From a marine actinobacterium MedAcidi-G1 (lineage in GTDB: Bacteria > Actinomycetota > Acidimicrobiia > Acidimicrobiales > MedAcidi-G1): a DNA stretch of 64,000 nucleotides. Shown one piece after another: positions 1,535 through 60,043 of the stretch. The stretch's first letter is position 1. Every line of letters begins with the position of its first letter. The position numbers and the translations under genes were made by a program. Location: NCBI GenBank assembly GCA_000817085.1, contig JUEM01000008.1, positions 1 through 64,000 on the forward strand. Reading direction: 5' to 3'. The notes under the pieces were generated by a model. That model made no database searches. It saw only the letters and a program-made list of their open reading frames with translations, and was not told where the DNA came from.

Positions 1535-2671
1535 ATGTCAAGCACAGTAATCGGTATCCCTACAGAGATAAAAACCGATGAAAAGCGCGTTTCATTGACT
1601 CCAAAGGCAGCAGAAAAGATTATTAGCAACGGTAATAAAGTTGTTGTTCAATCTGGCGCTGGAGAAGGAGCAGGTTTTGATAACAACCAATATGAAAAAG
1701 CTGGAGCCAAAATTGTTGAAACGGCGGAAGATGTCTTTAAAGAGTCAAAAATCATTGTCAAAGTTAAAGAGCCGCAAGAGAATGAACGTAAATTATTGAC
1801 ACCTGAACATACACTGTTCACCTATCTCCATTTAGCAGCCGATAAGAAACAGACAGAAGATCTAATATCATCAAATTCGACTTGTATAGCATTTGAAACA
1901 GTTACTGATGATCAAGGTTCACTGCCTCTTTTAACTCCTATGTCAGCAATAGCAGGAAGAATGTCAATACAAGCTGGCGCCCATTGCTTGGAGGCAAAAC
2001 AGGGGGGTACTGGTGTGTTACTCGCGGGTGCACCTGGGGCAGAACCAGGAAGAGTGTTAGTAATTGGTTGCGGAGTAGTTGGAAGTAACGCTGTTGAAAT
2101 CGCAGTCGGGATGGGAGCAGAAGTAATAGTTCTAGATAGGGACCAGAAAATTCTTGACTCTATGGATGAAAAATATTCCGGCAAAGTAAAAACTATTTTT
2201 TCAAATGAAAGTGATCTTGTTTCTGAGGTTCTAAATGCTGATTTGGTAATAGGAGCAGTTCTACTGCCGGGTGCTAAAGCACCAAAATTAGTAAACAAAA
2301 AAATGGTTTCTGAAATGAAGCCGGGATCCGTGATTGTCGACGTAGCAATAGATCAAGGTGGTTGTGTAGAAACAGCGCATCCAACTACCCATTCAGACCC
2401 AACCTTCGTAATTGATGGAGTGGTTCATTATTGTGTAGCGAACATGCCTGGTGCAGTGCCTCGAACAGCAACAATTTCTCTTACGAATACGATTCTTCCC
2501 TACGTTCTTACTTTGGCGAGTGAAGGCGTTAGAGGAGCGTTAGTTTCAAATCCAAATTTTCTAAATGGTCTAAATGTTTGCGCTGGAAAAATTTGCGAAC
2601 CATCAGTATCAGAAACTCACAATTTGGATTATATGAATCCTACAGAAGCACTTTTCTTATCTTTAAACTAG
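1535..2671 (+). CDS. ald: Alanine dehydrogenase
   Basis: A 378-residue NAD-dependent L-alanine dehydrogenase (L-alanine + NAD+ + H2O to pyruvate + NH4+ + NADH), close to the family's usual ~371 residues. The N-terminal substrate domain shows GIPTEIKTDEKRVSLTP, the catalytic lysine in KVKEPQ and the catalytic histidine in YLHLAAD. The Rossmann domain carries VLVIGCGVVGSNAVEIA and an acidic residue (LDRD) for NAD. The start ATG follows a GAGGGG site. It converges on the MttB-like gene and shares the four bases CTAG with it: each gene's stop lies inside the palindrome. Beside amine-demethylation genes it may handle amino-group balance (inference). Confidence 0.9.
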   Translation: MSSTVIGIPTEIKTDEKRVSLTPKAAEKIISNGNKVVVQSGAGEGAGFDNNQYEKAGAKIVETAEDVFKESKIIVKVKEPQENERKLLTPEHTLFTYLHLAADKKQTEDLISSNSTCIAFETVTDDQGSLPLLTPMSAIAGRMSIQAGAHCLEAKQGGTGVLLAGAPGAEPGRVLVIGCGVVGSNAVEIAVGMGAEVIVLDRDQKILDSMDEKYSGKVKTIFSNESDLVSEVLNADLVIGAVLLPGAKAPKLVNKKMVSEMKPGSVIVDVAIDQGGCVETAHPTTHSDPTFVIDGVVHYCVANMPGAVPRTATISLTNTILPYVLTLASEGVRGALVSNPNFLNGLNVCAGKICEPSVSETHNLDYMNPTEALFLSLN

Positions 2672-4221
2672 TTCTCAAAGTCCAGATGTATGGGGAACAT
2701 TTCACGTATAAGTGAATCTGAATTAGGTGAGATGTGCGTCGGAAGCGGACCTTCTAATATTTCCCTGACTACTTTGTTAGCGCGTTGGCGAACATCTAAA
2801 GAACCTGCATCCTTCCAATCATCGGGGCTTTGCCGGTCACCCACTTGAGGATAAAAGTATTCGGTTTGCATCACATCGAGAGTCTGAGAATGGCCTAAAA
2901 AGTGTCCAGGTCCGTTAATAACATCTTTTATCACCTCAATAGCAACTGACTCATCGTTTACTTCAATACCACGGACCGTGCGGGCTATTGAACCAAGCAT
3001 GTCATTATCAATAACCAATGCTTCTAGCGAGCAAGATAGTAAAGAGGCCAGCATTCCAGCTGATTCAAAGACTATGTTTGCTCCTGCCTGAGCGGCAAGT
3101 GTAACTGTGGTCCCTTTCTCATGGCCCGCTTGATTGTCAGGTAATTTTGAATCTGCCATTCCAGCGGCGACCCCAGAAGGAAGGCCAATCCAATTAACAA
3201 GTTGAGCTGCCGCAGAATTAAGAATTGCTTCTTCACCAGAACCTCCTGACATTGCTCCCGTACGTAAATCGGAAACAAACGGCCACATGCCCATAGTGCA
3301 AGGATGGCCGGGGGACATTAAATTCACACATGTTAAAGCGGCGAGACATTCTGTAAGTGCCTGTGTCAACGAGCCGGCAAGTGTCGCTGGCGAAGTAGCG
3401 CCAGCCTGTCCAGCAGAAAGCAAATTTATCGGCATTCCAACGCGAACCTGCTCAGCCATACAAAGAGTCGATTCTTCAGCAAATCTTAAAGGTGGAACAA
3501 CGAAAGTATTATTAGCGATGCAAAAAGGACGTTTACGAAACTCGTCAGAGTCAGGATTACCTGTAAGGGCAATATTGAACATCTGAGCCATATCGTGAAC
3601 ATGATCGGGATGAAAAAAAGAAGTACCGATTGGTTTGGTAGTGCTACTCATAGCAGCGTAGGCAGTATTAAAATCCAAATCTTTAGAAGATTCCATATCA
3701 CGCGCTACGACGGTTCTAACGTACATATGAATATTGTCTGATTTATCAATGATTCTGCCAATGTTAAAAATATCTTTAAGTTGACTGTCTCGAAAAGTAG
3801 AGGTTTCATGATCGAGTATCAGAACGGCAGCGCCACCAGTCGAAAAATGAACTCGATCACCTCCTATTTTAAGGTTGTGTTTTTCATCAAAACCGAAAAG
3901 TGTGAATTCCTTGGCGGCTACGTCTATCATCGAGCGAACTAGTTCTCTAGGAAACAAAAGACGTTTTTCAGAAGTGAAGGTTCCTCCATTAGAAGTTACA
4001 AGATCAATGAATTCAGGTATTGCTTGCGCCATTCCTACTTCTTCAAGCAATTCAAGTGCAGAATCAAAAATTTTTTCCATTTGGGAAACACTAAGTGGCT
4101 GGAATGAACCACCTGATAAACCTGGTTGAACAGGTCTTGATTCCGGCGATAATGGCGCTGAACGTTTAGCTATTCGAGCGCTACGACCACCTGATCTTTT
4201 AGCAAGAGTTTCTTCGCTCAT
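2668..4221 (-). CDS. MttB-family methyltransferase (non-pyrrolysine)
   Basis: A 517-residue member of the trimethylamine:corrinoid methyltransferase (MttB) superfamily. Recognisable blocks include the long TIM-barrel core, AGQAGATSPATLAGS, the PFVSDLRTG region and the C-terminal LDVMQTEYFYPQVGDR. The frame contains no internal TAG, so there is no pyrrolysine. In this superfamily that points to substrates other than trimethylamine, such as glycine betaine or another quaternary amine (established for MtgB-type members; inference here). No corrinoid protein gene (MttC type) lies nearby, so the methyl acceptor is unclear. It starts directly after the stop of the FAD/GcvT gene, with an AAGG site 4-5 bases before the ATG, indicating one operon with the two dehydrogenase genes. 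Confidence 0.8.
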   Translation of the reverse strand: MSEETLAKRSGGRSARIAKRSAPLSPESRPVQPGLSGGSFQPLSVSQMEKIFDSALELLEEVGMAQAIPEFIDLVTSNGGTFTSEKRLLFPRELVRSMIDVAAKEFTLFGFDEKHNLKIGGDRVHFSTGGAAVLILDHETSTFRDSQLKDIFNIGRIIDKSDNIHMYVRTVVARDMESSKDLDFNTAYAAMSSTTKPIGTSFFHPDHVHDMAQMFNIALTGNPDSDEFRKRPFCIANNTFVVPPLRFAEESTLCMAEQVRVGMPINLLSAGQAGATSPATLAGSLTQALTECLAALTCVNLMSPGHPCTMGMWPFVSDLRTGAMSGGSGEEAILNSAAAQLVNWIGLPSGVAAGMADSKLPDNQAGHEKGTTVTLAAQAGANIVFESAGMLASLLSCSLEALVIDNDMLGSIARTVRGIEVNDESVAIEVIKDVINGPGHFLGHSQTLDVMQTEYFYPQVGDRQSPDDWKDAGSLDVRQRANKVVREILEGPLPTHISPNSDSLIREMFPIHLDFEN

Positions 4222-49237: not shown

Positions 49238-50044
49238 CTAAAAAATACTCTCAAGTGTCACGGCGACTCCGTCTTCGTCATTGGAAGGAGCAATAAAATC
49301 AGCTGCCTCTTTCACCGAAGGTTCAGCATTTGACATTGCATAGCCACAACCTGCCCATTTGAGCATTTCAATATCATTTTGTTCATCGCCGAAAGCCCAA
49401 GTTTTCGTAGAATCAATTTTTAAATGCTTGGTGAGTTTTTCGAGTGCAGTTGCTTTATTGACACCAATTGTTCCAAACTCAAAAAAATCTAAACCTGAGC
49501 TAGAAATTTCTACATTATTTCCAACCACTTCACTGATTAGTCGACCGAGAGTTGGAATTTCATAGTCATCATGCCAAGCAAGAATTTTCCTAACAGGTCT
49601 AGCATCAAGATTCAATACATCATCTATAGGTTCTCCAATTGGGACTCCAGATGGTAAACGTTCAGCGAGACCATATTGCGCTTTAACTCCACGTTGAAAT
49701 TCATAAGCAAAAGCGACACCAGGTATTTTCTCACGAAGACTTTTTACAAGACTCTCAGGCAATTCAGGGGGGAGAAATATATCTTCAAGTATCTCTTCAC
49801 TTGGCAACTGAACTGTCATCGCTCCGTTTGAACACACAACAAAGTCAACTTCACCTAACTTTTCGACACAATCAAATGCAACTATCAAAGGTCTTCCAGT
49901 AGCAACCACTATCTTTATGTTTGCTGACCTTGCTTTCGCAATTGTTTCACACGTTTTTTCCGAGAGAGAACCATCAGACCTAGCAAGAGTCCCATCTACG
50001 TCAATTGCTACAAGTTGAGGCCTATCAGATTCTCTATCGTTCAC
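49238..50044 (-). CDS. HAD-superfamily Cof-type phosphatase
   Basis: A 268-residue HAD IIB (Cof) phosphatase. Motif I is AIDVDGTLARSDG with the two aspartates, motif II is VVATGRP, a lysine in the NKATALEKL segment serves as motif III and motif IV is WAFGDEQNDIEML. The cap domain lies in the middle. The family dephosphorylates sugar phosphates, pyridoxal phosphate or flavin precursors; which one is unknown. GTG start overlapping the upstream LEH-like stop by four bases. Confidence 0.85.
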   Translation of the reverse strand: MNDRESDRPQLVAIDVDGTLARSDGSLSEKTCETIAKARSANIKIVVATGRPLIVAFDCVEKLGEVDFVVCSNGAMTVQLPSEEILEDIFLPPELPESLVKSLREKIPGVAFAYEFQRGVKAQYGLAERLPSGVPIGEPIDDVLNLDARPVRKILAWHDDYEIPTLGRLISEVVGNNVEISSSGLDFFEFGTIGVNKATALEKLTKHLKIDSTKTWAFGDEQNDIEMLKWAGCGYAMSNAEPSVKEAADFIAPSNDEDGVAVTLESIF

Positions 50045-50409
50045 TTGGAAAGTTGATCCCTGTAAGTTGCAAGATCAAAATAATCTCGCCAAAGCGTAAT
50101 TTTGCCATTCACAACTTCCCAGACTCCACAAACTGGAATCTCGATCCAATTACCACCCATTTCAAATCTGTCTAAACGTTCATTAAAAACCAAATTCCCA
50201 GTACTGGAGGCACGGTGTGTAGGCCAATCAACATTTGAACAATTTTCAATCATGGGTCCTAACATTTCTTTAACAGCTTTTGCTCCAAAGACCTTTCCCA
50301 TAGGGACATTGTCGTATTCACACTCCTCATCAAGAAGCGAGATAGCAGAATCTATATCTCTTTTTTCAAGCGATGATATAAATGCTTCTACAGTTTCTAA
50401 AGGTGTCAT
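50041..50409 (-). CDS. Limonene-1,2-epoxide hydrolase-like protein
   Basis: A 122-residue SnoaL-fold protein that keeps the limonene-epoxide-hydrolase active site: Y32-x-N34 (ECEYDNVP), R78-x-D80 (NERLDRF) and D109 (TLWRDYFD), matching the Tyr/Asn plus Asp-Arg-Asp set of the Rhodococcus enzyme. It would add water to a small epoxide in one step. Physiological substrate unknown. About 25 residues shorter than the Rhodococcus enzyme, mainly at the N-terminus. Upstream member of an overlapping pair with the HAD phosphatase gene. TAGGAG lies upstream of its start. Confidence 0.8.
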   Translation of the reverse strand: MTPLETVEAFISSLEKRDIDSAISLLDEECEYDNVPMGKVFGAKAVKEMLGPMIENCSNVDWPTHRASSTGNLVFNERLDRFEMGGNWIEIPVCGVWEVVNGKITLWRDYFDLATYRDQLSK

Positions 50410-50436
50410 TTTTTCTCCTAGTTTTCACGATTAGTT

Positions 50437-51237
50437 TTAAGATGATTTTTTGTCTTGATATTGAACGGTTCGATGTGTTCTACCACCCGAAACTAATATA
50501 TTTTGGCCCGTTATCCATGATGACGCATCTGAAGATAAAAAAACCACTGCAGTAGCAATGTCATCGGGAACCCCTAGGCGTCCCAGAGGTATTGATGCAG
50601 CAATTTGTCTTGCTTTTTCTTCGTTCACATCCACCATTTCTTGATAGGCCTCAGTTATTACCGGCCCTGGTGAAACAGCGTTAACACGAATGTTTCTTTC
50701 TGCTAGTTCTAGAGCAAAAGTTTCTGTCATATTCAGCATCCCGGCTTTTGCAGCTGCATAAGGGCCAGTGAAGGCAGATCCTCTCATGCCGGCACCCGAA
50801 GAAATATTTATGATACATCCTCCTTCAGGCATTCGATTAGCTGCAGCTTTTGACCCCTGAAACGCAGTAGTTAGATTTAAATCAAGTTGGCTTGAAAAGA
50901 TTTCATCTGGAGTGTCAAGGAGAGTTCGATTACGTTTTTCATCAGTACCACCTACGTTATTCACCCAAATATCTAGACTTCCAAAAGCATCAACACAGGC
51001 ATCACCTATAGTTTCAGATCCTATTTCCCTTATATCTCCGACTACTTCAATTGCTTCGCTACCTAGATCACGAACCATTTGGGCCGTTTCAGACACGTCA
51101 CTTTCTCTTCGAGCATTTATTACGAGGTTTGCTCCAACATCAGCTAATGCCAGAGCAATACCACGACCAATACCTTGCCCGGAGCCTGTAACAACTGCGG
51201 CTTTATTATCAAGTTGAAATTTTTTTAGTGTGTTCAC
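50437..51237 (-). CDS. Short-chain dehydrogenase/reductase (FabG-like)
   Basis: A classical SDR, about 266 residues from the GTG at 51237; an ATG at 51264 is the alternative. TGSGQGIGRG binds NAD(P), NNVGG replaces the usual NNAG, and the catalytic serine/tyrosine/lysine are in NISSGAGM and YAAAK. VNAVSPGPVITEA follows. Substrate unknown. It is head-to-head with a second SDR gene, with start codons about 25 bases apart and no clear ribosome-binding site on either side. Confidence 0.85.
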   Translation of the reverse strand: MNTLKKFQLDNKAAVVTGSGQGIGRGIALALADVGANLVINARRESDVSETAQMVRDLGSEAIEVVGDIREIGSETIGDACVDAFGSLDIWVNNVGGTDEKRNRTLLDTPDEIFSSQLDLNLTTAFQGSKAAANRMPEGGCIINISSGAGMRGSAFTGPYAAAKAGMLNMTETFALELAERNIRVNAVSPGPVITEAYQEMVDVNEEKARQIAASIPLGRLGVPDDIATAVVFLSSDASSWITGQNILVSGGRTHRTVQYQDKKSS

Positions 51238-51262
51238 GCTAGAGAGGTTACGCTCAAGACCC

Positions 51263-52072
51263 ATGGATTCAACAAAGCAGAGACTAGAAAATAAAGTAAG
51301 TGTTGTAATAGGTGGCGCCACAGGTTTTGGTAGAGCCACCATTAAACTTTTTGCGGATCAAGGAGCCAAAGTCATAGTGGTGGGCAGGCGCGCAGAACTA
51401 GCCGAACAGGTAGGGCAAGAATTTGGTGGAAAAGGTTTTGGGTGTGACGTAGTTGAAGATGAACAAGTAATTAATCTTGTGAACTCAATTATGGAAGAAG
51501 AAGGAACAATTGACGTAGTAGTAAATTATGCGGGCTATCAAGAATCGAAAAGGATCCGCGAACTAACCCCTGACCATGTTCGACCCATGGTTGAAGTTCA
51601 GTTGATAGCCGCTATGCAGGTAATTCAGCATTTTGGAAACGCTATGGCATCGAGTGGCGGTGGATCGATCATATCAACTTCATCTTTGACGGCTCACAAC
51701 CCTTCTACAGGGCATCCTGTTTATGCTGCATGTAAACGTGGACTTGAATATTTGACTGAAATTGCAGCTCTAGAATATGGGCCAGACCAAGTGAGAGTCA
51801 ATTGCATTGCTGCTCATTTAATTGAGACCCCAATGACAGAAGGAATTTTTCAAAATCAATTGGTGATTGAGGCAGCACGCCTTCAAACACCTTTGGGAAG
51901 AATGGGAAGTGTCGAGGATATAGCAAATGCAGCTCTTTTTTTAGCTTCAGAAGAATCTGGTTATATTTCGGGTCAAACCATAGTTGTAGATGGAGCAGCG
52001 TCTACACAGAAACTTCCCTCAGCTTTCGATATAGAGTATTTAGCTTCGGCGCGACCGGAATTGTTGGAATAG
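51263..52072 (+). CDS. Short-chain dehydrogenase/reductase
   Basis: About 269 residues from the ATG at 51263, within CCATGG; a GTG at 51230 would intrude into the divergent gene. The cofactor motif is GGATGFGRAT. NYAG replaces NNAG, and the catalytic residues are in STSSLTAHN and YAACK. The C-terminal SGQTIVVDGAAS is standard. GAGAGG lies 15 bases upstream, rather far. Reaction unknown. It ends 2 bases before the convergent P450 gene. Confidence 0.83.
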   Translation: MDSTKQRLENKVSVVIGGATGFGRATIKLFADQGAKVIVVGRRAELAEQVGQEFGGKGFGCDVVEDEQVINLVNSIMEEEGTIDVVVNYAGYQESKRIRELTPDHVRPMVEVQLIAAMQVIQHFGNAMASSGGGSIISTSSLTAHNPSTGHPVYAACKRGLEYLTEIAALEYGPDQVRVNCIAAHLIETPMTEGIFQNQLVIEAARLQTPLGRMGSVEDIANAALFLASEESGYISGQTIVVDGAASTQKLPSAFDIEYLASARPELLE

Positions 52073-52074
52073 TT

Positions 52075-53247
52075 TTAATTCCATTTGACTCTAAGTTCCG
52101 TAAATCCACGAAGAATAAATGGTGGAGTCATAGGGGGATCTTCCAAAACTTTAAATGTTGTATTTGATGTAACAATTTTCTCTAGGGCTAAACGAGCTTC
52201 TAATCGTGCTAGAGGAGCTCCTATGCAATAGTGAACGCCCCACCCGAAAGCAAGATGTTGTCTAGCAAGTCCTGGATCGCGGTCAAACCTAATTGAGTCA
52301 GGATCATTCCACATTTCCGGATCTCGATTGGCAGAAGCAAACATAGCTTGGAGCTTTGTTCCTGTAGGAATCATCGAGTCTCGAACTGGACAAGTTTCTG
52401 AATTAGTTCTAAACAACCCTTGAACCGGTGAGTCGAAACGGAGAAATTCTTCGACGGCAGTTTCAATCAAATGCGGCTTATTTTTTAGACTTTCGAGTAA
52501 TTCTGGTTGTGAGGAAAGTCGGTAAACCATAAGAGCGAGAAGGCTCGCAGTCGTTTCGTGTCCGGCAACAAGAAGTTGGTGCCCTAAACGTTGAATTTCT
52601 CTTCTTGAAAGATCCCCTTTTGAAAAGGCAATTGTCATTGTTGAAATAGCATCCTCAGGGAGTTGATCACCTTGATTTATTAACATGAGTCTCGTTTCAA
52701 CAAGATCGTCGATATAGGCCCATAGCTCCTGGTTAGCTTTATCAACAAGCTTGAGATCACCACCCCCTAGACCGGCAACAATATCGTCAGCCCATCTATG
52801 GAATTTTTCTCGATCATTCGGATTAACACCAAGAATTTCAGCTATTGCGAGTGCGGGAAAAGGAAATGCGAAAAGTTCCACAAAATCTCCTTCTCCGGGC
52901 TTTTCGAAAGTTTCCCAGAGGTCGTTACAGATTGTTCTAAGTCTTTTTTCAAGGAGACGCATCTTTGAAGGAAGAAAAACTTCTCTAAGTACTCGACGTT
53001 GACGAGCGTGATCAGGATCGTCAGTTGATCCTAAAACACCGCCTTTTTGATAAAAAACACCAGGACCATCTGAATTGCCCCACAGTTCTGGAGATTTTAA
53101 AATTCCAAGGACATCATCATGTCTGCTAACAACGTAAAAAGGTGGATCAAAATTTTCTTCATAATGAAGAGGGCATTCTTCACGCAAAATTCGATGACCA
53201 TCAGAAGGCTCTAGATCATTAGCTCTTTCTACGTGCGAATATGACAT
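52075..53247 (-). CDS. Cytochrome P450
   Basis: About 390 residues from the ATG at 53247; an in-frame start 20 codons upstream would overlap the neighbouring gene and is less likely. It shows the oxygen-activation helix AGHETTAS, the ExxR motif in EEFLRFD, and the heme loop FGWGVHYCIGAPLAR with the thiolate cysteine. Soluble bacterial class I type, needing a ferredoxin and reductase, neither of which is in the window. It lies 4 bases after the predicted selenoprotein gene on the same strand, so the two are likely co-transcribed. Substrate unknown. Confidence 0.9.
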   Translation of the reverse strand: MSYSHVERANDLEPSDGHRILREECPLHYEENFDPPFYVVSRHDDVLGILKSPELWGNSDGPGVFYQKGGVLGSTDDPDHARQRRVLREVFLPSKMRLLEKRLRTICNDLWETFEKPGEGDFVELFAFPFPALAIAEILGVNPNDREKFHRWADDIVAGLGGGDLKLVDKANQELWAYIDDLVETRLMLINQGDQLPEDAISTMTIAFSKGDLSRREIQRLGHQLLVAGHETTASLLALMVYRLSSQPELLESLKNKPHLIETAVEEFLRFDSPVQGLFRTNSETCPVRDSMIPTGTKLQAMFASANRDPEMWNDPDSIRFDRDPGLARQHLAFGWGVHYCIGAPLARLEARLALEKIVTSNTTFKVLEDPPMTPPFILRGFTELRVKWN

Positions 53248-53251
53248 AGTT

Positions 53252-53758
53252 CTAGGTTTGTTTCTTCGGCTCACGACTCCAATTAATGTCAAAGTCCTGT
53301 GCCACATCCAAAACAGTTAATGCCCGCCCCATCCCAACGCAAAAACCTATTGTGACAGTTAGCTCCAGAATTTCTTCTTCACTGAAATGTTCTTTTAAGC
53401 GAATAAAAAACTCGTCATTAATAGATTTATGATCAAGAGCAAAACACTCAGCGTATTCGATTGCTAATTTTTCACGAATTGTAAAAGATTGATTCTCTTC
53501 ATATAAGTGAACTGAATGGTAGTGATCTTCATCAAATCCTTGCTCCATCGCCGATGCAGCTCTCGTATTCAGTCATATATCGCACGAGTTTAATTGCGCG
53601 ATCCGCATCCTAGCGGCTTCACGTTCACGGACAGGTAGACCACTCTCTTCGTAAACAGCTTTACTTAAAGCATGCACCCCTTTACCCATGTGGGGCGCTA
53701 TCGACCAGACCCTACTGACCTCGTGTCCTTCGCCTTCAGGAATTTCTATACGCGCCAT
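53252..53758 (-). CDS. Carboxymuconolactone decarboxylase/AhpD-family protein with in-frame TGA: probable selenoprotein (CxxU)
   Basis: One 168-codon gene with a single in-frame TGA at 53573-53575 (codon 62). The 61 codons before it and 106 after it are in the same frame, and both halves match one CMD/AhpD-type protein: PVREREAARMRIAQLNSCDI, then U62, LNTRAASAMEQGF, and a C-terminal IREKLAIEYAECFALDH ... LELTVTIGF. In relatives the motif is E-x11-C-x2-C-x3-(H/R). Here E47, C59, TGA at 62 and R66 occupy those places, so the TGA replaces the resolving/peroxidatic cysteine. Family members are thiol-dependent peroxidases or decarboxylases. AAGGAG sits 8 bases before the ATG. A nonsense mutation is the alternative; position and downstream hairpin favour selenocysteine. 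Confidence 0.75.
53542..53560 (-). promoter_or_regulatory. Candidate bacterial SECIS hairpin
   Basis: Starting 12 bases after the TGA, the minus-strand RNA GCUGCAUCGGCGAUGGAGC folds into GCU/AGC, one G-G mismatch, CAUC/GAUG and the three-base loop GGC. The loop begins 21 bases after the TGA and has G in its first two positions, both within the published bacterial SECIS rules as I know them. Folding was done by eye. Confidence 0.65.
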
Positions 53759-53848
53759 ATGTACAATCTCCTTTCTAGTGATAGTTTTTCATGAACTTAT
53801 TAAATAGAAATAGTTGAGCCTAAAAATATCAGAATAAAGGAAGTTCAA

Positions 53849-55582
53849 ATGGAAAGCTGGATTACAGATAGCCCATTTAATGAAAGATTTCGTTATTACA
53901 CACGCGGAAACGCAGATGAAGTAGGTCCAGATCCATGGAGTCCACTTGGTTGGACCTTGGCTTGGGAGAAAGGTTGCTGCCCGGGGGTTGCTGGCGGATA
54001 CGTAGAGTATGGAGTTTTTGATTTGGATGAATTTCCCCATGAAGCACGTAGCACTTTTGGACTTTGGGGAGGATATTTCTATAACTGTCTCTCAATGACT
54101 TGGGTTTTCGGAGTTCGAATGCCTGGAGCCACTCCAGAAGCAATAAATTTAGCGTATTTTGGTGAACGTTCCGATGTCCCCGAGTATGAAGAACACCCTG
54201 AAGATATTAAAGAAGAAGCTGAGGAACTGGTGGCTGAGAGTATGGCCTGGGTAATGAGCGCTGATGATTACCCAATGATGGAAGAAAGATCCAAAGTAGC
54301 TCGAGAAGCTGTGAAAAATCGCCCAAATCACAGTGAGTCATCTAATGAAGAGCTAGTTAGATATGCACGCGAAATGGTTGAGCTACTTGAATACGTTTGG
54401 GTGCCATCTTGTGTAGCAGCATTAGCCTGTTCGCTTGGGCCGGGTGCGGTGCAGGCTATTTGTGATGGAATTGGACGTTCTGATGATGCCGTGAAGCTTA
54501 TGTCTGCAGTTGGAGACGTTGAGTCTGCGGGCGCTTCATTCCGTATGTGGGATTTGAGCAGAATCATTCGAAACTCAGAAGAACTCACAACTATTTTTGA
54601 TGATGGCAGTGATGGAGCTTTAGAAAAAATAAAATCTTTAACCTCCAACGATGCTAAAAGTTTTGTTACTCATTGGGAAGAACTGATAGAAGAGTGTGGC
54701 CATCGTGGACCTAACGAATGGGATATGAGGTCCCATTCCTGGGCGACAAAGCCGGAATTAGCACTTGGGATGTTGGAGAGATTACGTTTCCAAGAAGACG
54801 ATAAATCACCTCATTTAGCTTCTATAAAGTCAGCAGAAACACGAGAAAAACTCACTGCAGAAGTATTAGATCTCGTAAAAGATGATGAAGAAACGCACGC
54901 TAGTCTTGCTGCAGCAATAAAATCGGCTGCTCTTTTCTTTGGGTATAGGGAAATGGGTAAAAATGCTGCTATTCGATCAGTTCATGAAGCAAAGCTAGCA
55001 ATGATGGAACTAGGTACAAGAATGGTGACGGTGGGCGCGATTGATGACCCTCAGCAATTGTTTATGGTTACCGAATCAGAGCTTGATGATTTTATTGCTG
55101 ACCCTATTTCAATGAGAGATACAATTTTAGAAAGAGATAAAGATTTTGCGTATTTGCATGAAGTTGAACCGCCTTACATAGTTGATGGAAGAGTTGGCAT
55201 ACCACCTATTTCTGAATGGCCTAAGAGAGGTTTAAGCAAATCTGATCCTGCAGAAGTAGGAGAAGTGTTGCAGGGTAGCGCCGGTTCCCCAGGTATCGCT
55301 ACCGGCACAGCAAGGGTAATTTTAAATCCTAATGATGCTTCATCGCTTCAACCAGGTGATGTCATGATCGCCCCCACAACTGATCCAGCATGGACCCCAT
55401 TATTTATGACAGCCTCGGCAGTGGTTGTAAACGTTGGAGCAGTTGCCAGCCATGCAGCGATTGTAAGTAGAGAGCTAGGAATCCCTTGCGCCGTGTCAGT
55501 GGCTGATGCAACTGATCGTATAAGAGATGGCTCTACTATTACGGTAGACGGTTCAACAGGAACTGTGACAATCGTTAGCTAG
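53849..55582 (+). CDS. PEP-utilising-enzyme mobile-domain protein without ATP-grasp domain
   Basis: A 577-residue protein. The last ~90 residues form a complete phosphohistidine swivelling domain: GSAGSPGIATGTARVI, PGDVMIAPTTDPAWTPLF and the phosphorylatable histidine in SHAAIVSRELGIP. The first ~470 residues are largely helical and resemble the middle/substrate region of rifampicin-phosphotransferase and PEP-synthase-type enzymes (EECGHRGPNEWDMRSHSW, ETHASLAAAIKSAALFFGYR read in parts). No ATP-grasp nucleotide domain is encoded here or nearby. It resembles the split organisation of phenylphosphate synthase. Probably phosphorylates an alcohol or ketone with a partner from elsewhere (inference). 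Confidence 0.7.
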   Translation: MESWITDSPFNERFRYYTRGNADEVGPDPWSPLGWTLAWEKGCCPGVAGGYVEYGVFDLDEFPHEARSTFGLWGGYFYNCLSMTWVFGVRMPGATPEAINLAYFGERSDVPEYEEHPEDIKEEAEELVAESMAWVMSADDYPMMEERSKVAREAVKNRPNHSESSNEELVRYAREMVELLEYVWVPSCVAALACSLGPGAVQAICDGIGRSDDAVKLMSAVGDVESAGASFRMWDLSRIIRNSEELTTIFDDGSDGALEKIKSLTSNDAKSFVTHWEELIEECGHRGPNEWDMRSHSWATKPELALGMLERLRFQEDDKSPHLASIKSAETREKLTAEVLDLVKDDEETHASLAAAIKSAALFFGYREMGKNAAIRSVHEAKLAMMELGTRMVTVGAIDDPQQLFMVTESELDDFIADPISMRDTILERDKDFAYLHEVEPPYIVDGRVGIPPISEWPKRGLSKSDPAEVGEVLQGSAGSPGIATGTARVILNPNDASSLQPGDVMIAPTTDPAWTPLFMTASAVVVNVGAVASHAAIVSRELGIPCAVSVADATDRIRDGSTITVDGSTGTVTIVS

Positions 55583-55590
55583 TTAAAAAT

Positions 55591-56418
55591 TTACTCCGTG
55601 AAATAGCCACCGTCTGGGTGAAGGATTTCTCCGGTCATATATGACGACTCGTCAGATGCAAGGAAAAGAGCAGTATTTGCTACTTCAACTGGAAGACCTC
55701 TTCGACCCATCGGAACGCTCTTAAGCGCTTCTTCGACTCTTTCAGGAGGTGCGATTTCAAAAATGGTAGTCATGTGGGTTTCAATAAAACCTGGTCCAAT
55801 CGCATTAACCCTAATGTTGGCAGGAGCAAGTTCACGAGCGGCTTTTTTAGTAAGCATCCAAACTCCAGCTTTTGAAACAACATACGGAGTCGGTCCCGCA
55901 TCTGGATGTTTTGCGGCAATTGATGCGAGAGTAATTATTGAACCTCCTTTATTCTGTTCGGCCATAACTGCGGCAGCTGACTGAAGTGCGAAATAGGTTC
56001 CTGTCAAGTTCACATCCAAAACTTTTTGCCATTCTTCAAGGCTTCCATCTATGAATGCTTGTACAGGATTTTCTATTTCTTGAGCGCGCTTTACTGCCAT
56101 TTTTACTTCGGCTTCTCGATCACCCGAAAGATAATCTTGATGTGTAACCCCAGCGGCAGTTACAAGAACATCAACTGAACCAAATTCTGCTAAAGCAACA
56201 TCGATCATTTCTTGATTCTCGAGGCGGTTAACGGCATCAAGACTCACATAAGTTGCTTTCCCACCAGCATTTTGAACCATCTTTACAGTTTCTAATCCTG
56301 ACTCTTCGAGCATGTCCGCAATAACTATTCCCTTTGCCCCTTCTTGAGCAAATCGTAAAGCTGTAGCTCTTCCAAGACCATTTGCACCACCTGTTATGAC
56401 AGCAACTTTTTCACTCAT
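55591..56418 (-). CDS. Short-chain dehydrogenase/reductase with inserted loop
   Basis: About 275 residues from the second methionine (ATG 56418); an ATG three codons earlier (56427) is possible. TGGANGLGRAT binds the cofactor, VLVTAAGVTH replaces NNAG, and the catalytic residues are in TLASIAAKH and YVVSK. An insertion of about 30 residues (HQDYLSGDREAEVKMAVKR and after) between strand 4 and helix 4 departs from FabG and resembles SDRs acting on bulky hydrophobic substrates. Substrate unknown. Divergent from a P450 gene. Confidence 0.82.
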   Translation of the reverse strand: MSEKVAVITGGANGLGRATALRFAQEGAKGIVIADMLEESGLETVKMVQNAGGKATYVSLDAVNRLENQEMIDVALAEFGSVDVLVTAAGVTHQDYLSGDREAEVKMAVKRAQEIENPVQAFIDGSLEEWQKVLDVNLTGTYFALQSAAAVMAEQNKGGSIITLASIAAKHPDAGPTPYVVSKAGVWMLTKKAARELAPANIRVNAIGPGFIETHMTTIFEIAPPERVEEALKSVPMGRRGLPVEVANTALFLASDESSYMTGEILHPDGGYFTE

Positions 56419-56487
56419 TCTCCCCATGGCTTAACCTTACATCGGCTTCAAGTCGACTTCTGTATCTAGATTGCGTAACCTAACGTT

Positions 56488-57768
56488 ATGACAGTTGAAG
56501 AAACCGAACACGACGAAACGCCTTCTTTGTTAGATCATAAATGTCCCGTAGCAACAAATTTTATGGACCATAAGGTTCAGAGTGAACCTTGGGATTTCAT
56601 AGCCGAATTACATGAAAGTTGCCCCGTGCATAGGGTATCTGAAACAGGAGTTTGGCTTATGGTCAACTATGAAGCTTCAAAGGAAGCTTTATTGACACAT
56701 GAAATTTTTTCCAGCACCGTTCGAGCAGCTTCAGGACATCAAGCAGAAAAACTTCGCCTCCATCAAGAAATTCTTAGCAAAGAAGGATGGGGACACGTAC
56801 TGACTTTGCAACGCACAGATCCACCTGTGCATACCCACTATCGCAAGCTTATAAATCGCGTTTTCACTCCAAGAAGAGTAGCGGCAATGGCACCGAATAT
56901 TGATGCTGTAGCGAACTCTCTAATCGACGCATTCGTCGATTCGGGAGAATGTGAATTTGTAAATGAATTCGCTATGCCTCTCCCGGGAATAATCATTACT
57001 GAACAATTGGGGCTTGACAGAAGTCAGATTTACACATTTAAAAAGTGGGCAGACGCGATGCTTGCTCCCTCAATGCGACTACTTACAGAAGAAGAGATTA
57101 GAGAAGTAGCAGAAATAGAGCTGGAAGCTCAAAGACATTTTGCACAAGAGTTTGAAAAGAGGCGTCAAAACCCTTCAGATGATTTAATTTCGGCATTGGT
57201 GAATTCACACGAAGAGGGTGAGGAACCACTCACAATCGCTGAATTGCAAAACTTGATGCATCAGTTAATTACTGGGGGTTTTGAAACTACGACTAGTGCA
57301 TTGGCGCACGGTATTTGGTTATTAATTGAATACCCAGAGACGCAAAAAATGCTTAGAAGCAATCCTGAGCTTATCGAAAACTTTATAGAGGAAGCTTTGC
57401 GATTTTGGAGCCCTGTTCAAGGCTTGGCACGTATGACCACTGAAGATACCGAGGTTTGTGGTACCACAATTCCTTCTGGTTCTATGGTTTCGGTCCGATA
57501 CGGAGCAGCTAATCGGGACCCAGAACAATTTGAGAATCCGGAAAAATTCGATATCACACGAAAAGATAACGGCGGACATTTAGCTTTTGGATTTGGTGCA
57601 CATTTTTGCCCCGGGGCTTCCCTTGCTCGTCAAGAATTAAAGAGTTCATTTACAGCTTTGCTGCAACGTAGCGAATGGTTTGAATTCGCTAAACCTTTAT
57701 CAGATCCGGCTCACGAACCTAGTTTCTTTTTGCTCCCTCTGGAAGAGATGCACATAAAAATCAAATAG
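56488..57768 (+). CDS. Cytochrome P450
   Basis: A 426-residue soluble P450: I-helix GGFETTTSALAHG, ExxR in EEALRFWSP, and the heme thiolate loop FGFGAHFCPGASLAR. Clearly a different subfamily from the 52-kb P450 (it is longer and has an N-terminal extension with DHKCPVATNFMDHK). No redox partner genes nearby. Substrate probably a hydrophobic carboxylate or terpenoid-like compound, judging from epoxide hydrolase, SDR and CoA-transferase neighbours (inference). Confidence 0.9.
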   Translation: MTVEETEHDETPSLLDHKCPVATNFMDHKVQSEPWDFIAELHESCPVHRVSETGVWLMVNYEASKEALLTHEIFSSTVRAASGHQAEKLRLHQEILSKEGWGHVLTLQRTDPPVHTHYRKLINRVFTPRRVAAMAPNIDAVANSLIDAFVDSGECEFVNEFAMPLPGIIITEQLGLDRSQIYTFKKWADAMLAPSMRLLTEEEIREVAEIELEAQRHFAQEFEKRRQNPSDDLISALVNSHEEGEEPLTIAELQNLMHQLITGGFETTTSALAHGIWLLIEYPETQKMLRSNPELIENFIEEALRFWSPVQGLARMTTEDTEVCGTTIPSGSMVSVRYGAANRDPEQFENPEKFDITRKDNGGHLAFGFGAHFCPGASLARQELKSSFTALLQRSEWFEFAKPLSDPAHEPSFFLLPLEEMHIKIK

Positions 57769-57780
57769 GTAAAAAACCTA
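57766..57780. terminator. Small hairpin spanning two convergent stop codons
   Basis: TAGGT (57766-57770), five A and ACCTA (57776-57780) form a 5-base stem. The P450 stop TAG and the epoxide hydrolase stop (TAG on the minus strand) are its two ends. Too short to be a strong terminator by itself. Confidence 0.25.
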
Positions 57781-58935
57781 CTTATTATAAAGTTGCGAAA
57801 AAGTTTCCTGGATGTCATTTACTAGTAAGGATGGTTGCTCGGCTGCACTAAAGTGTCCACCTGCGGGCATTACTGTCCATCGTAAAAGATTTGTTTTTTC
57901 CTCAACTATTTTTTTTGGGAGCGCCACTACGTCTTTGGGAAAAATCGCGTAAGCAGTTGGAGATTCAATTACTGGTTGACGACCGTGAGCTAGTGGCCAA
58001 GGTTTATTAAAGTGCTCAAAATACATTCTTAGTGATGAAGTTATTGCCCCTGTGCACCAATACAAAGATGCGTTGGTGCACAAGTCTTCCCGCGAAAAAA
58101 CTGACTCAATATCACCGTTGTTGTCACTCCAATTATGCCTTCGTTCCCAGAGCCAAGCGGCTGTACCTGCCGGAGAGTCAATTAAAGCGTGAGCTAAAGT
58201 ATGGGGATCATTTGTATGGACTGCAAGATGACTTTTTAATGATGGTGCTGCTTCGTCCGCTCTGTCTCTCAAATCTTTTTCTTTCGGATCCCAATAGTGA
58301 TCAGATATTTCACTCCTTATGAGCCCAGGTACAACAGGTAACCCGAGATGGACACCAATGACGTTGTCGCTATATGCATGACCCAGATGCGCAGTTATAA
58401 GAGACCCCCAGTCTCCGCCATGTGCTGCATAACTTTCATATCCAAGCACTTCAGTCATCAGTTTGTTCCAAAGATATGCAACGGTTGGGACATCTACTCC
58501 GGCCTTTGTTAGTGGCGTAGAGAATCCAAAACCGGGGAGTGAAGGCACAATTACGTCAAACGACGGGGATCCTTTTTCTTTAGGAGATGAGAGTGGAGTT
58601 ATTACCTCACGAAAATCCCAAAAAGTCCATGGCCATCCATGGGTTAAGATGATTGGAATTGAATTGCTTTTAGTTCCCTTTGATCTAAGAAAATGGATAC
58701 TTATTCCTTCTATTTCAACTTTAAAGTGCTCATAACGACGCATTTCTTGAACTACTTTTTCCCAACTCCATGTATTTGCCCAATAGTGAATCATTTCGCG
58801 CAGCCACTTGTTTGGGACACCGTATTTCCAATCATCTTCACCAATTGTGTGCGGCCAACGAGTATTCAAAAGACGCTTTTTTAGTAAATTCAAGTCTTCT
58901 TCACTTATGTCAGGGCTGAAACTTTCTATTTCCAT
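57778..58935 (-). CDS. Epoxide hydrolase (microsomal-type, N-terminal EHN domain)
   Basis: A 385-residue epoxide hydrolase. The EHN domain comes first (about 1-110, SEEDLNLLKKRLLNTRWPHT), then the alpha/beta-hydrolase core with the oxyanion motif HGWPWTFWDFRE, the nucleophile D175 in HGGDWGSLI and the base H361 in AGGHFSAAEQP. It opens epoxides to trans-diols via an alkyl-enzyme ester. This is the juvenile-hormone/microsomal EH architecture, common in actinobacterial terpenoid and lipid catabolism. It converges on the P450 gene, whose product could supply an epoxide (inference). Confidence 0.9.
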   Translation of the reverse strand: MEIESFSPDISEEDLNLLKKRLLNTRWPHTIGEDDWKYGVPNKWLREMIHYWANTWSWEKVVQEMRRYEHFKVEIEGISIHFLRSKGTKSNSIPIILTHGWPWTFWDFREVITPLSSPKEKGSPSFDVIVPSLPGFGFSTPLTKAGVDVPTVAYLWNKLMTEVLGYESYAAHGGDWGSLITAHLGHAYSDNVIGVHLGLPVVPGLIRSEISDHYWDPKEKDLRDRADEAAPSLKSHLAVHTNDPHTLAHALIDSPAGTAAWLWERRHNWSDNNGDIESVFSREDLCTNASLYWCTGAITSSLRMYFEHFNKPWPLAHGRQPVIESPTAYAIFPKDVVALPKKIVEEKTNLLRWTVMPAGGHFSAAEQPSLLVNDIQETFSQLYNK

Positions 58936-58965
58936 GAGATTTTTATCAGATCGATTAACTACGTT

Positions 58966-59445
58966 TTAAGCAAAGACTGATCGTGTTATCCATTCAGCTA
59001 CCATGGCAGGCTTGTTTTGCCCTTCTATTTCCACGGTGATAGTTCTAGTTATATTCACAGCAGTTGGTTCTTTCAGTTCTACTGAAGATATTTTGCTTTG
59101 AGCTCTTATTCGCGCACCCGCTAGGACAGGGTTAATAAAACGGATTTTTTCGAAACCATAGTTTATTCCCATTAGCTGGCCTTCCATTTTTGGAATCGCA
59201 ACCGGGAGGCTTGCTGTCAGATGAACAAGAAGGGAAAGAGAAAGGAAACCGTGAGCTATTGTTCCTCCAAAAGGTGTTTCTGCTAAAGCTCTTTCTGGAT
59301 CAACGTGAATGAATTGATGATCAATTGTTGCATCAGCAAAGTCATTAATCCGGTTCTGATCAACTTCAAACCATTCTCCATAGCCCTGATCAGCGCCTTC
59401 AAGCTCTTTTAGGTTGTTGAAAGCAGTTTGTAAGTTTGAAGACAT
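58966..59445 (-). CDS. MaoC-family hydratase/dehydratase
   Basis: The start is the ATG at 59445 (159 residues), supported by AGAGGAGA just upstream; earlier in-frame ATGs invade the divergent gene. Hot-dog fold with the catalytic pair in ATIDHQFIHVDPERA (D and H), then GTIAHGFLSLSLL. MaoC proteins hydrate 2-enoyl-CoAs to 3-hydroxyacyl-CoAs. Acyl chain unknown. Adjacent to an epoxide hydrolase gene and divergent from a nitroreductase gene. Confidence 0.85.
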   Translation of the reverse strand: MSSNLQTAFNNLKELEGADQGYGEWFEVDQNRINDFADATIDHQFIHVDPERALAETPFGGTIAHGFLSLSLLVHLTASLPVAIPKMEGQLMGINYGFEKIRFINPVLAGARIRAQSKISSVELKEPTAVNITRTITVEIEGQNKPAMVAEWITRSVFA

Positions 59446-59488
59446 TTTACTCTCCTCTAAGATTTTTAACATTTTACAAGTTTCTATC

Positions 59489-60043
59489 ATGCCCGATCTA
59501 GACACTTACCTGCTACTAATGCGATTATTAGGTATGGATGCTTATAAGGCTGTTATAGAAAAACGTGATAAAAGAGAATTTGAGAATCTCCCAATTCCTG
59601 AAGAAATTTTGTTGAAAGTATTGCAAGCAACAAGGATGGCGGGAAGTGGCAAAAATAGACAAACGGGTCGAATCGTAGTTGTCGCTGAACAAGAAGGTAG
59701 AAATTCGGTTGCTGAAAGTGGTGATTTTGGTGATTGGGTCAAAGATGCGGCTGTAGCGCTGGTGTTTGCTATTCACTCAGATGGTGGGCTTAGGCCAGAT
59801 TTTGATATTGGAAGAATGGCACAGAACGCAATGATTGTTGCTAATTCTGAAGGTTTATCTAGCTGTCCAATGACTGTTTATCGTCAAAAAGAACTTAAAG
59901 CTGCCTTAAGTATTCCTGATGAGTATGACGTGCCGATGGTTATAGGTATGGGTTTTCCTGCCAATAGTTCTAAAACGTCGCGATCTCATCCACGGATACC
60001 ACTTGAGGACATGATTTATAGAGAGACTTGGGGAAGTATTTAA
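59489..60043 (+). CDS. Nitroreductase-family FMN oxidoreductase
   Basis: The preferred ATG is 59489 (184 residues). A further ATG at 59534 would begin at MDAYKAVIEKRDKREF, the point where most family members start. FMN-binding basic residues (KRDKREF), the ATRMAGSGKNRQ loop and the C-terminal SCPMTVYRQKELK ... MVIGMGFPA fit small nitroreductase-like enzymes, which reduce nitro groups, quinones, enones or flavins. Physiological substrate unknown. Start spacing from the divergent MaoC gene is only 43 bases. Confidence 0.75.
   Translation: MPDLDTYLLLMRLLGMDAYKAVIEKRDKREFENLPIPEEILLKVLQATRMAGSGKNRQTGRIVVVAEQEGRNSVAESGDFGDWVKDAAVALVFAIHSDGGLRPDFDIGRMAQNAMIVANSEGLSSCPMTVYRQKELKAALSIPDEYDVPMVIGMGFPANSSKTSRSHPRIPLEDMIYRETWGSI

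Follow-up and report, generated by a model that had tools for sequence, protein, structure and literature searches.

A predicted AhpD-like selenoprotein with an in-frame TGA and a covarying SECIS hairpin in a marine Acidimicrobiales bacterium

The window, which is the whole stretch of 64,000 nucleotides analyzed here from the marine actinobacterium MedAcidi-G1, carries a gene interrupted by one in-frame TGA that almost certainly encodes a real selenoprotein, with codon 62 decoded as selenocysteine, as judged by comparison with homologous genes. The product is a member of the CMD/AhpD superfamily according to its match to PF02627 and its predicted all-helical AhpD-like fold. The gene, its signals, and its two neighbors are as follows.

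53252..53758, minus strand: predicted selenoprotein gene, CMD/AhpD-like, 168 codons, stop codon TAG at 53254-53252 (translation with TGA as U, Pfam CMD, AlphaFold, Foldseek)
53573..53575, minus strand: in-frame TGA, codon 62, very probably read as selenocysteine (C59-D-I-U62; 45 homologues with TGA, 39 with TGC or TGT)
53542..53560, minus strand: putative bacterial SECIS hairpin lying in the coding region and starting 12 nt past the TGA, with the loop GGC and 8 pair positions, of which one is a G-G mismatch in this genus (folding; covariation; loss in Cys homologues)
53768..53774, minus strand: Shine-Dalgarno-like AAAGGAG, 9 nt upstream of the ATG (sequence reading)
52075..53247, minus strand: cytochrome P450, ATG 4 nt past the selenoprotein stop (Pfam p450, 1.7e-29)
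53849..55582, plus strand: divergent neighbor with a C-terminal PEP-utilizing-enzyme mobile domain (Pfam PF00391)

The initial annotation had described a single frame with two open stretches and a lone TGA between them; its coordinates were right, and the strand, which it had not given, is the minus strand. The TGA is the single internal stop in 53758..53252 and lies at 53575..53573, so that codon 62 occupies the second position of the C-x-x-C motif (C59-D-I-TGA62) exactly as had been proposed, with C59, E47, and R66 in place in the translation. Under table 11 the locus yields one ORF of 61 residues and another of 98, which is the division into two fragments that had been expected of automated annotation. 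When the frame is read through, the Pfam CMD model matches residues 22-100, spanning the TGA, with an E value of 2.5e-10 and a score of 40.7 bits against a cut-off of 23; taken separately, the upstream half reaches 21.1 bits and the downstream half matches no Pfam model. The earlier assignment of the two halves to one family is thus borne out by the gain on read-through, from 21.1 to 40.7 bits, and by the homologues, but not by the downstream piece taken alone. The peptide EHFSEEEILELTVTIGFCVGMGR is an example of what is encoded by the codons downstream of the TGA.

The order was searched across 248 genomes, which yielded many relatives, both with and without a single TGA. Codon 62 was read in 84 loci, where it is TGA in 45 and TGC or TGT in 39, with no other codon at this position in any of the 84, a pattern well beyond what chance would give. 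Within the genus, TGA is found in all nine sampled species (the genome studied here and eight others, with 90-95% identity), and outside it another 36 homologues, spread over 26 genomes of the order, have it too. One match, in genome G614, had been flagged as containing one TGA, but its codon 62 is TGC (Cys) and it was left out of the selenocysteine count; a scan of viral contigs gave one weak partial match, with codon 62 outside it. E47 and R66 are invariant in 84/84 loci, and C59 is invariant in 78 tallied loci and in the 6 read separately. Among the nine species pN/pS is 0.088 before the TGA and 0.061 after it, with a mean dS of about 0.6 on either side; purifying selection on the codons that follow the TGA is strong, and the downstream part is therefore translated. 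Both kinds of sequence that had been suggested as a check, Cys homologues (39 with TGC or TGT) and independent sequences keeping TGA (45), were thus recovered, and the objections raised beforehand find no footing, as related species keep the TGA and the gene has no other disabling mutation.

These data bear directly on the simplest alternative, namely that the TGA is a genuine stop and that the locus is a pseudogene, has been misread in sequencing, or encodes a pair of separate small proteins. The 61- and 98-residue frames read under table 11 are what this alternative would predict, but the TGA is shared by 45 homologues in many separate assemblies, including AG-414-N20, which has a single-cell-style name; elsewhere only Cys codons replace it; and both the purifying selection downstream and the compensatory changes in the hairpin described below speak against termination. 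We regard a genuine stop as extremely improbable.

A G-loop hairpin had been noted 12 bases after the TGA, and we find it there, beginning at 53560 with the loop GGC. Its sequence is GCUGCAUC-GGC-GAUGGAGC, which folds into an upper stem of 4 bp, a G-G mismatch (the fourth pair, in this genus), and a further 3 bp, with a 3-nt loop whose first base is G, a UGA-to-loop spacing of 20 nt, and an energy of -8.6 kcal/mol. The hairpin falls within the published limits for bacterial SECIS elements, namely a loop of 3-9 nt with G among its first two positions, a distance of 16-37 nt between UGA and loop, an upper stem of 4-16 bp, and an MFE at or below -7.5 kcal/mol (PMC13188914). Compared with dinucleotide shuffles, the 54-nt stretch folds modestly better (z -1.5, with 15/200 shuffles as good). 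Among 26 distinct selenocysteine-encoding sequences, 88% of cells are paired and six of the eight pairs have changed on both sides, one of them being found as G-C, A-U, and U-A; the covariation score is 0.407, whereas shuffles give 0.174 and sliding the hairpin gives no more than 0.128. The same positions are 48% paired in Cys sequences, with no double change, and in a larger set the paired fraction is 0.88 in Sec versus 0.33 in Cys sequences. Against synonymous-codon controls, Sec genes fold more stably in the hairpin region (mean z -2.4) and Cys genes scarcely do (-0.6), and the loop starts with GG or GU in 45/45 Sec homologues. The compensatory changes support the assignment of this hairpin as a SECIS element, which the Cys homologues have lost.

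The host genome (1.68 Mb, 43 contigs, 84% complete) has the machinery that such a gene requires, and the prediction that the host makes selenocysteine holds: a tRNA-Sec scoring 64.1 bits, with the anticodon TCA according to ARAGORN, stands for selC, selA adjoins selB, and selD is present, itself with an in-frame TGA (GAGUGCK). Family searches, by which the selenoproteome of this genome was sampled, gave three apparent selenoproteins besides the AhpD-like one, namely SelD, a peroxiredoxin with the motif TPGU (L125, 187-1890, minus strand), and a peroxiredoxin-like protein with UGC in the context WUGC (L128, 1114-2148, minus strand). A literature search for selenoproteins of Acidimicrobiia turned up nothing relevant.

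The UGA could also be read as another residue, for instance as Trp through a changed code, or by leaky read-through. A C following UGA favors read-through, and the base after the TGA is C in 43/45 Sec homologues; nevertheless, C at this place is also common in the Cys homologues (31/39), the alternative at codon 62 is always Cys, the Sec machinery in the genome is complete, and the hairpin covaries. A decoding other than selenocysteine is, for these reasons, highly improbable. Two other leads on recoding within the window were set aside. The Rfam PYLIS_3 match at 3060-3159 (minus strand) falls in an MttB-like frame (2668-4221, 517 residues) that has no in-frame stop or TAG and whose TIGR02369 match is below the cut-off, and its product resembles an MttB homologue of the non-pyrrolysine type. 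Four candidates came out of a crude scan for more TGA-bridged frames in the window; on inspection by eye, three seem to be ordinary ORFs extended upstream and the fourth a noise frame.

The AlphaFold model is helical, with a mean pLDDT of 91.5 and a pTM of 0.86, and a Foldseek search of the PDB ranks two AhpD-like proteins, Atu0492 and PA0269, highest, with the debrominase Bmp8 (6ohi/6ohj) also among the matches. The spacing E-x11-C-x2-C is present as E47, C59, and U62. In PA0269 and Mycobacterium tuberculosis AhpD the proton relay comprises Glu, Cys, Tyr/His, Cys, and His, and the catalytic His four residues past the second Cys is invariant in the structures compared (PMC3141380). The corresponding residues here are E47, C59, I61, U62, and R66, so that the AhpD-defining His is missing, being Arg66 in 84/84, and the residue before the second Cys position is Ile rather than His or Tyr. 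Of the active-site positions proposed in the initial annotation, E47 therefore stands, and R66 does occupy the position of the family's His but departs from the AhpD signature. Sec and Cys forms alike have Arg66 without exception, which makes it characteristic of this branch rather than a consequence of selenocysteine. PA0269 of Pseudomonas aeruginosa (2o4d, 2ijc), which reduces H2O2 weakly (PMC3141380), has the same fold (TM 0.76/0.88) and the same E-x11-C-x2-C spacing, but has Cys in place of Sec, His55 in place of Arg66, and Tyr50 in place of Ile61. M. tuberculosis AhpD (1gu9, 1knc) is more remote: its E118, C130, and C133 match E47, C59, and U62 in spacing, whereas its fold match is weak (E 0.43), its His132 and His137 are not kept, and its catalytic motif lies at the opposite end of the chain (compare PMC3141380).

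Proteins of this kind were first predicted from ocean DNA in 2005, and the statement in the initial annotation that AhpD-like selenoproteins had been reported from marine metagenomes was accurate: the Sargasso Sea selenoproteome includes 4 sequences of CxxU CMD-domain proteins (PF02627; PMC1088965), and the GOS data include 70 sequences of AhpD-like 2 (pfam02627, CxxU) and 299 of AhpD-like 1 (PMC2398784). Compared by description, the Sargasso CMD proteins and GOS AhpD-like 2 have in common with the present protein the Pfam domain, Sec as the second residue of CxxC, an origin in ocean bacteria, and a downstream bacterial SECIS. Those members are environmental sequences, while here the full gene, the host genome, the machinery, the neighbors, and the relatives are known, and the present gene adds a well-supported member. 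Its best NCBIfam relatives are models of AhpD-like 1 (COG2128 YciW, for members of which CxxU has been reported), namely NF053654, 'YciW-related (seleno)protein' (E 1.2e-17, 64.2 bits versus a curated cut-off of 310), and TIGR01926 (E 6.6e-7, 29.3 bits versus a curated cut-off of 81.8); no NCBIfam model reaches its cut-off on the selenoprotein.

Taken together, the sequence comparisons support the description of the protein as a putative AhpD-like redox selenoenzyme; it does not have the His expected of an AhpD peroxidase in the strict sense. We propose that SelB with Sec-tRNA-Sec would bind the hairpin, whose loop lies 20 nt past UGA62, and insert selenocysteine, and that the resulting C59-x-x-U62 redox pair would sit in the AhpD/CMD-like all-helical fold. 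The selenolate of U62 would most likely attack an oxidized or electrophilic substrate and then form a selenenyl-sulfide with C59, after which a cellular thiol system would re-reduce U62; E47 may act as the base, and R66, in place of the AhpD His, may keep the selenolate or thiolate ionized. With Arg in place of the relay His and Ile just ahead of the second Cys position, the sequence does not in itself indicate peroxidase activity. We infer, with middling confidence, that the likeliest activity is peroxide reduction or a role as disulfide-reducing adaptor for the genome's own peroxiredoxins.

The gene neighborhood is relevant to this question. The selenoprotein gene and the P450 gene downstream of it are probably on one transcript, and the P450 is downstream in 9/9 species of the genus; no P450 was found next to the homologues from other genera, and the link to the P450 is therefore lineage-specific. 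The gene with the PEP-utilizer domain is found in the same place and orientation in L040-L043, from two other genera, with 53-60% identity; the N-terminal part of the protein encoded at 53849-55582 has no Pfam match. The suggestion that a peroxidase-like enzyme co-transcribed with a P450 protects against or acts on a peroxide thus keeps its AhpD-like fold, but the relay His is Arg in all relatives, the P450 neighbor was seen within the genus only, and the peroxide role is speculation. The window also contains, at 49238-60043, a cluster encoding two P450s, a limonene-epoxide-hydrolase-like protein, an epoxide hydrolase, and three SDRs, whose gene order is mostly conserved among related species of the genus and which may serve the oxidative breakdown of a hydrophobic compound.

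A selenoprotein with an activity other than that of a peroxidase, such as a thiol-dependent reductive dehalogenase or a dedicated partner of the P450 or of the PEP-utilizer-like protein, is a serious possibility, though not the one that we favor. It would agree with the Arg in place of the relay His in 84/84, with the presence of the debrominase Bmp8 among the Foldseek matches, and with the PEP-utilizer-domain gene adjoining the selenoprotein gene in three genera; on the other hand, the closest matches in fold and sequence are the AhpD-like PA0269 and Atu0492, even if the weak H2O2 reduction by PA0269 (PMC3141380) is not decisive. A bolder version, which we consider rather unlikely, is that the motif E-x11-C-x2-U-x3-R marks a distinct, uncurated branch of the AhpD fold, with at least five Sec/Cys changes, catalyzing a non-peroxide reductive reaction coupled to the PEP-utilizer neighbor or to the P450.

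Sec and Cys forms both occur in this subfamily. A maximum-likelihood tree of the 84 proteins requires 6 undirected Sec/Cys changes, of which at least 5 are forced by well-supported branches, and the Cys form L119, with 63% identity, falls in the same supported group as the gene in the window. Two same-branch Cys forms, L121 and L122, occur in G614 and G347 (another family of the phylum), both of which have selA, and a Sec-capable genome can therefore keep Cys here. selA was found in 25/27 genomes with a Sec form versus 17/40 with Cys forms only (Fisher p 2.5e-5), in a tally where related genomes are not independent and unfetched loci were scored as Cys when they had no stop inside. Of the two Sec-form genomes in which selA was not found, G205 does have a tRNA-Sec above the cut-off; in G178 (83% complete, 520 contigs) no tRNA-Sec reached it either.

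The locus shows concretely how standard gene calling cuts one selenoprotein gene into fragments of 61 and 98 residues. It turns a category of environmental reads, the CxxU CMD proteins, into a gene with an Acidimicrobiales host, a covarying SECIS, and close Sec and Cys relatives, and the paired Sec and Cys forms within one subfamily provide a clean system for asking what selenocysteine buys the enzyme and when Cys replaces it.
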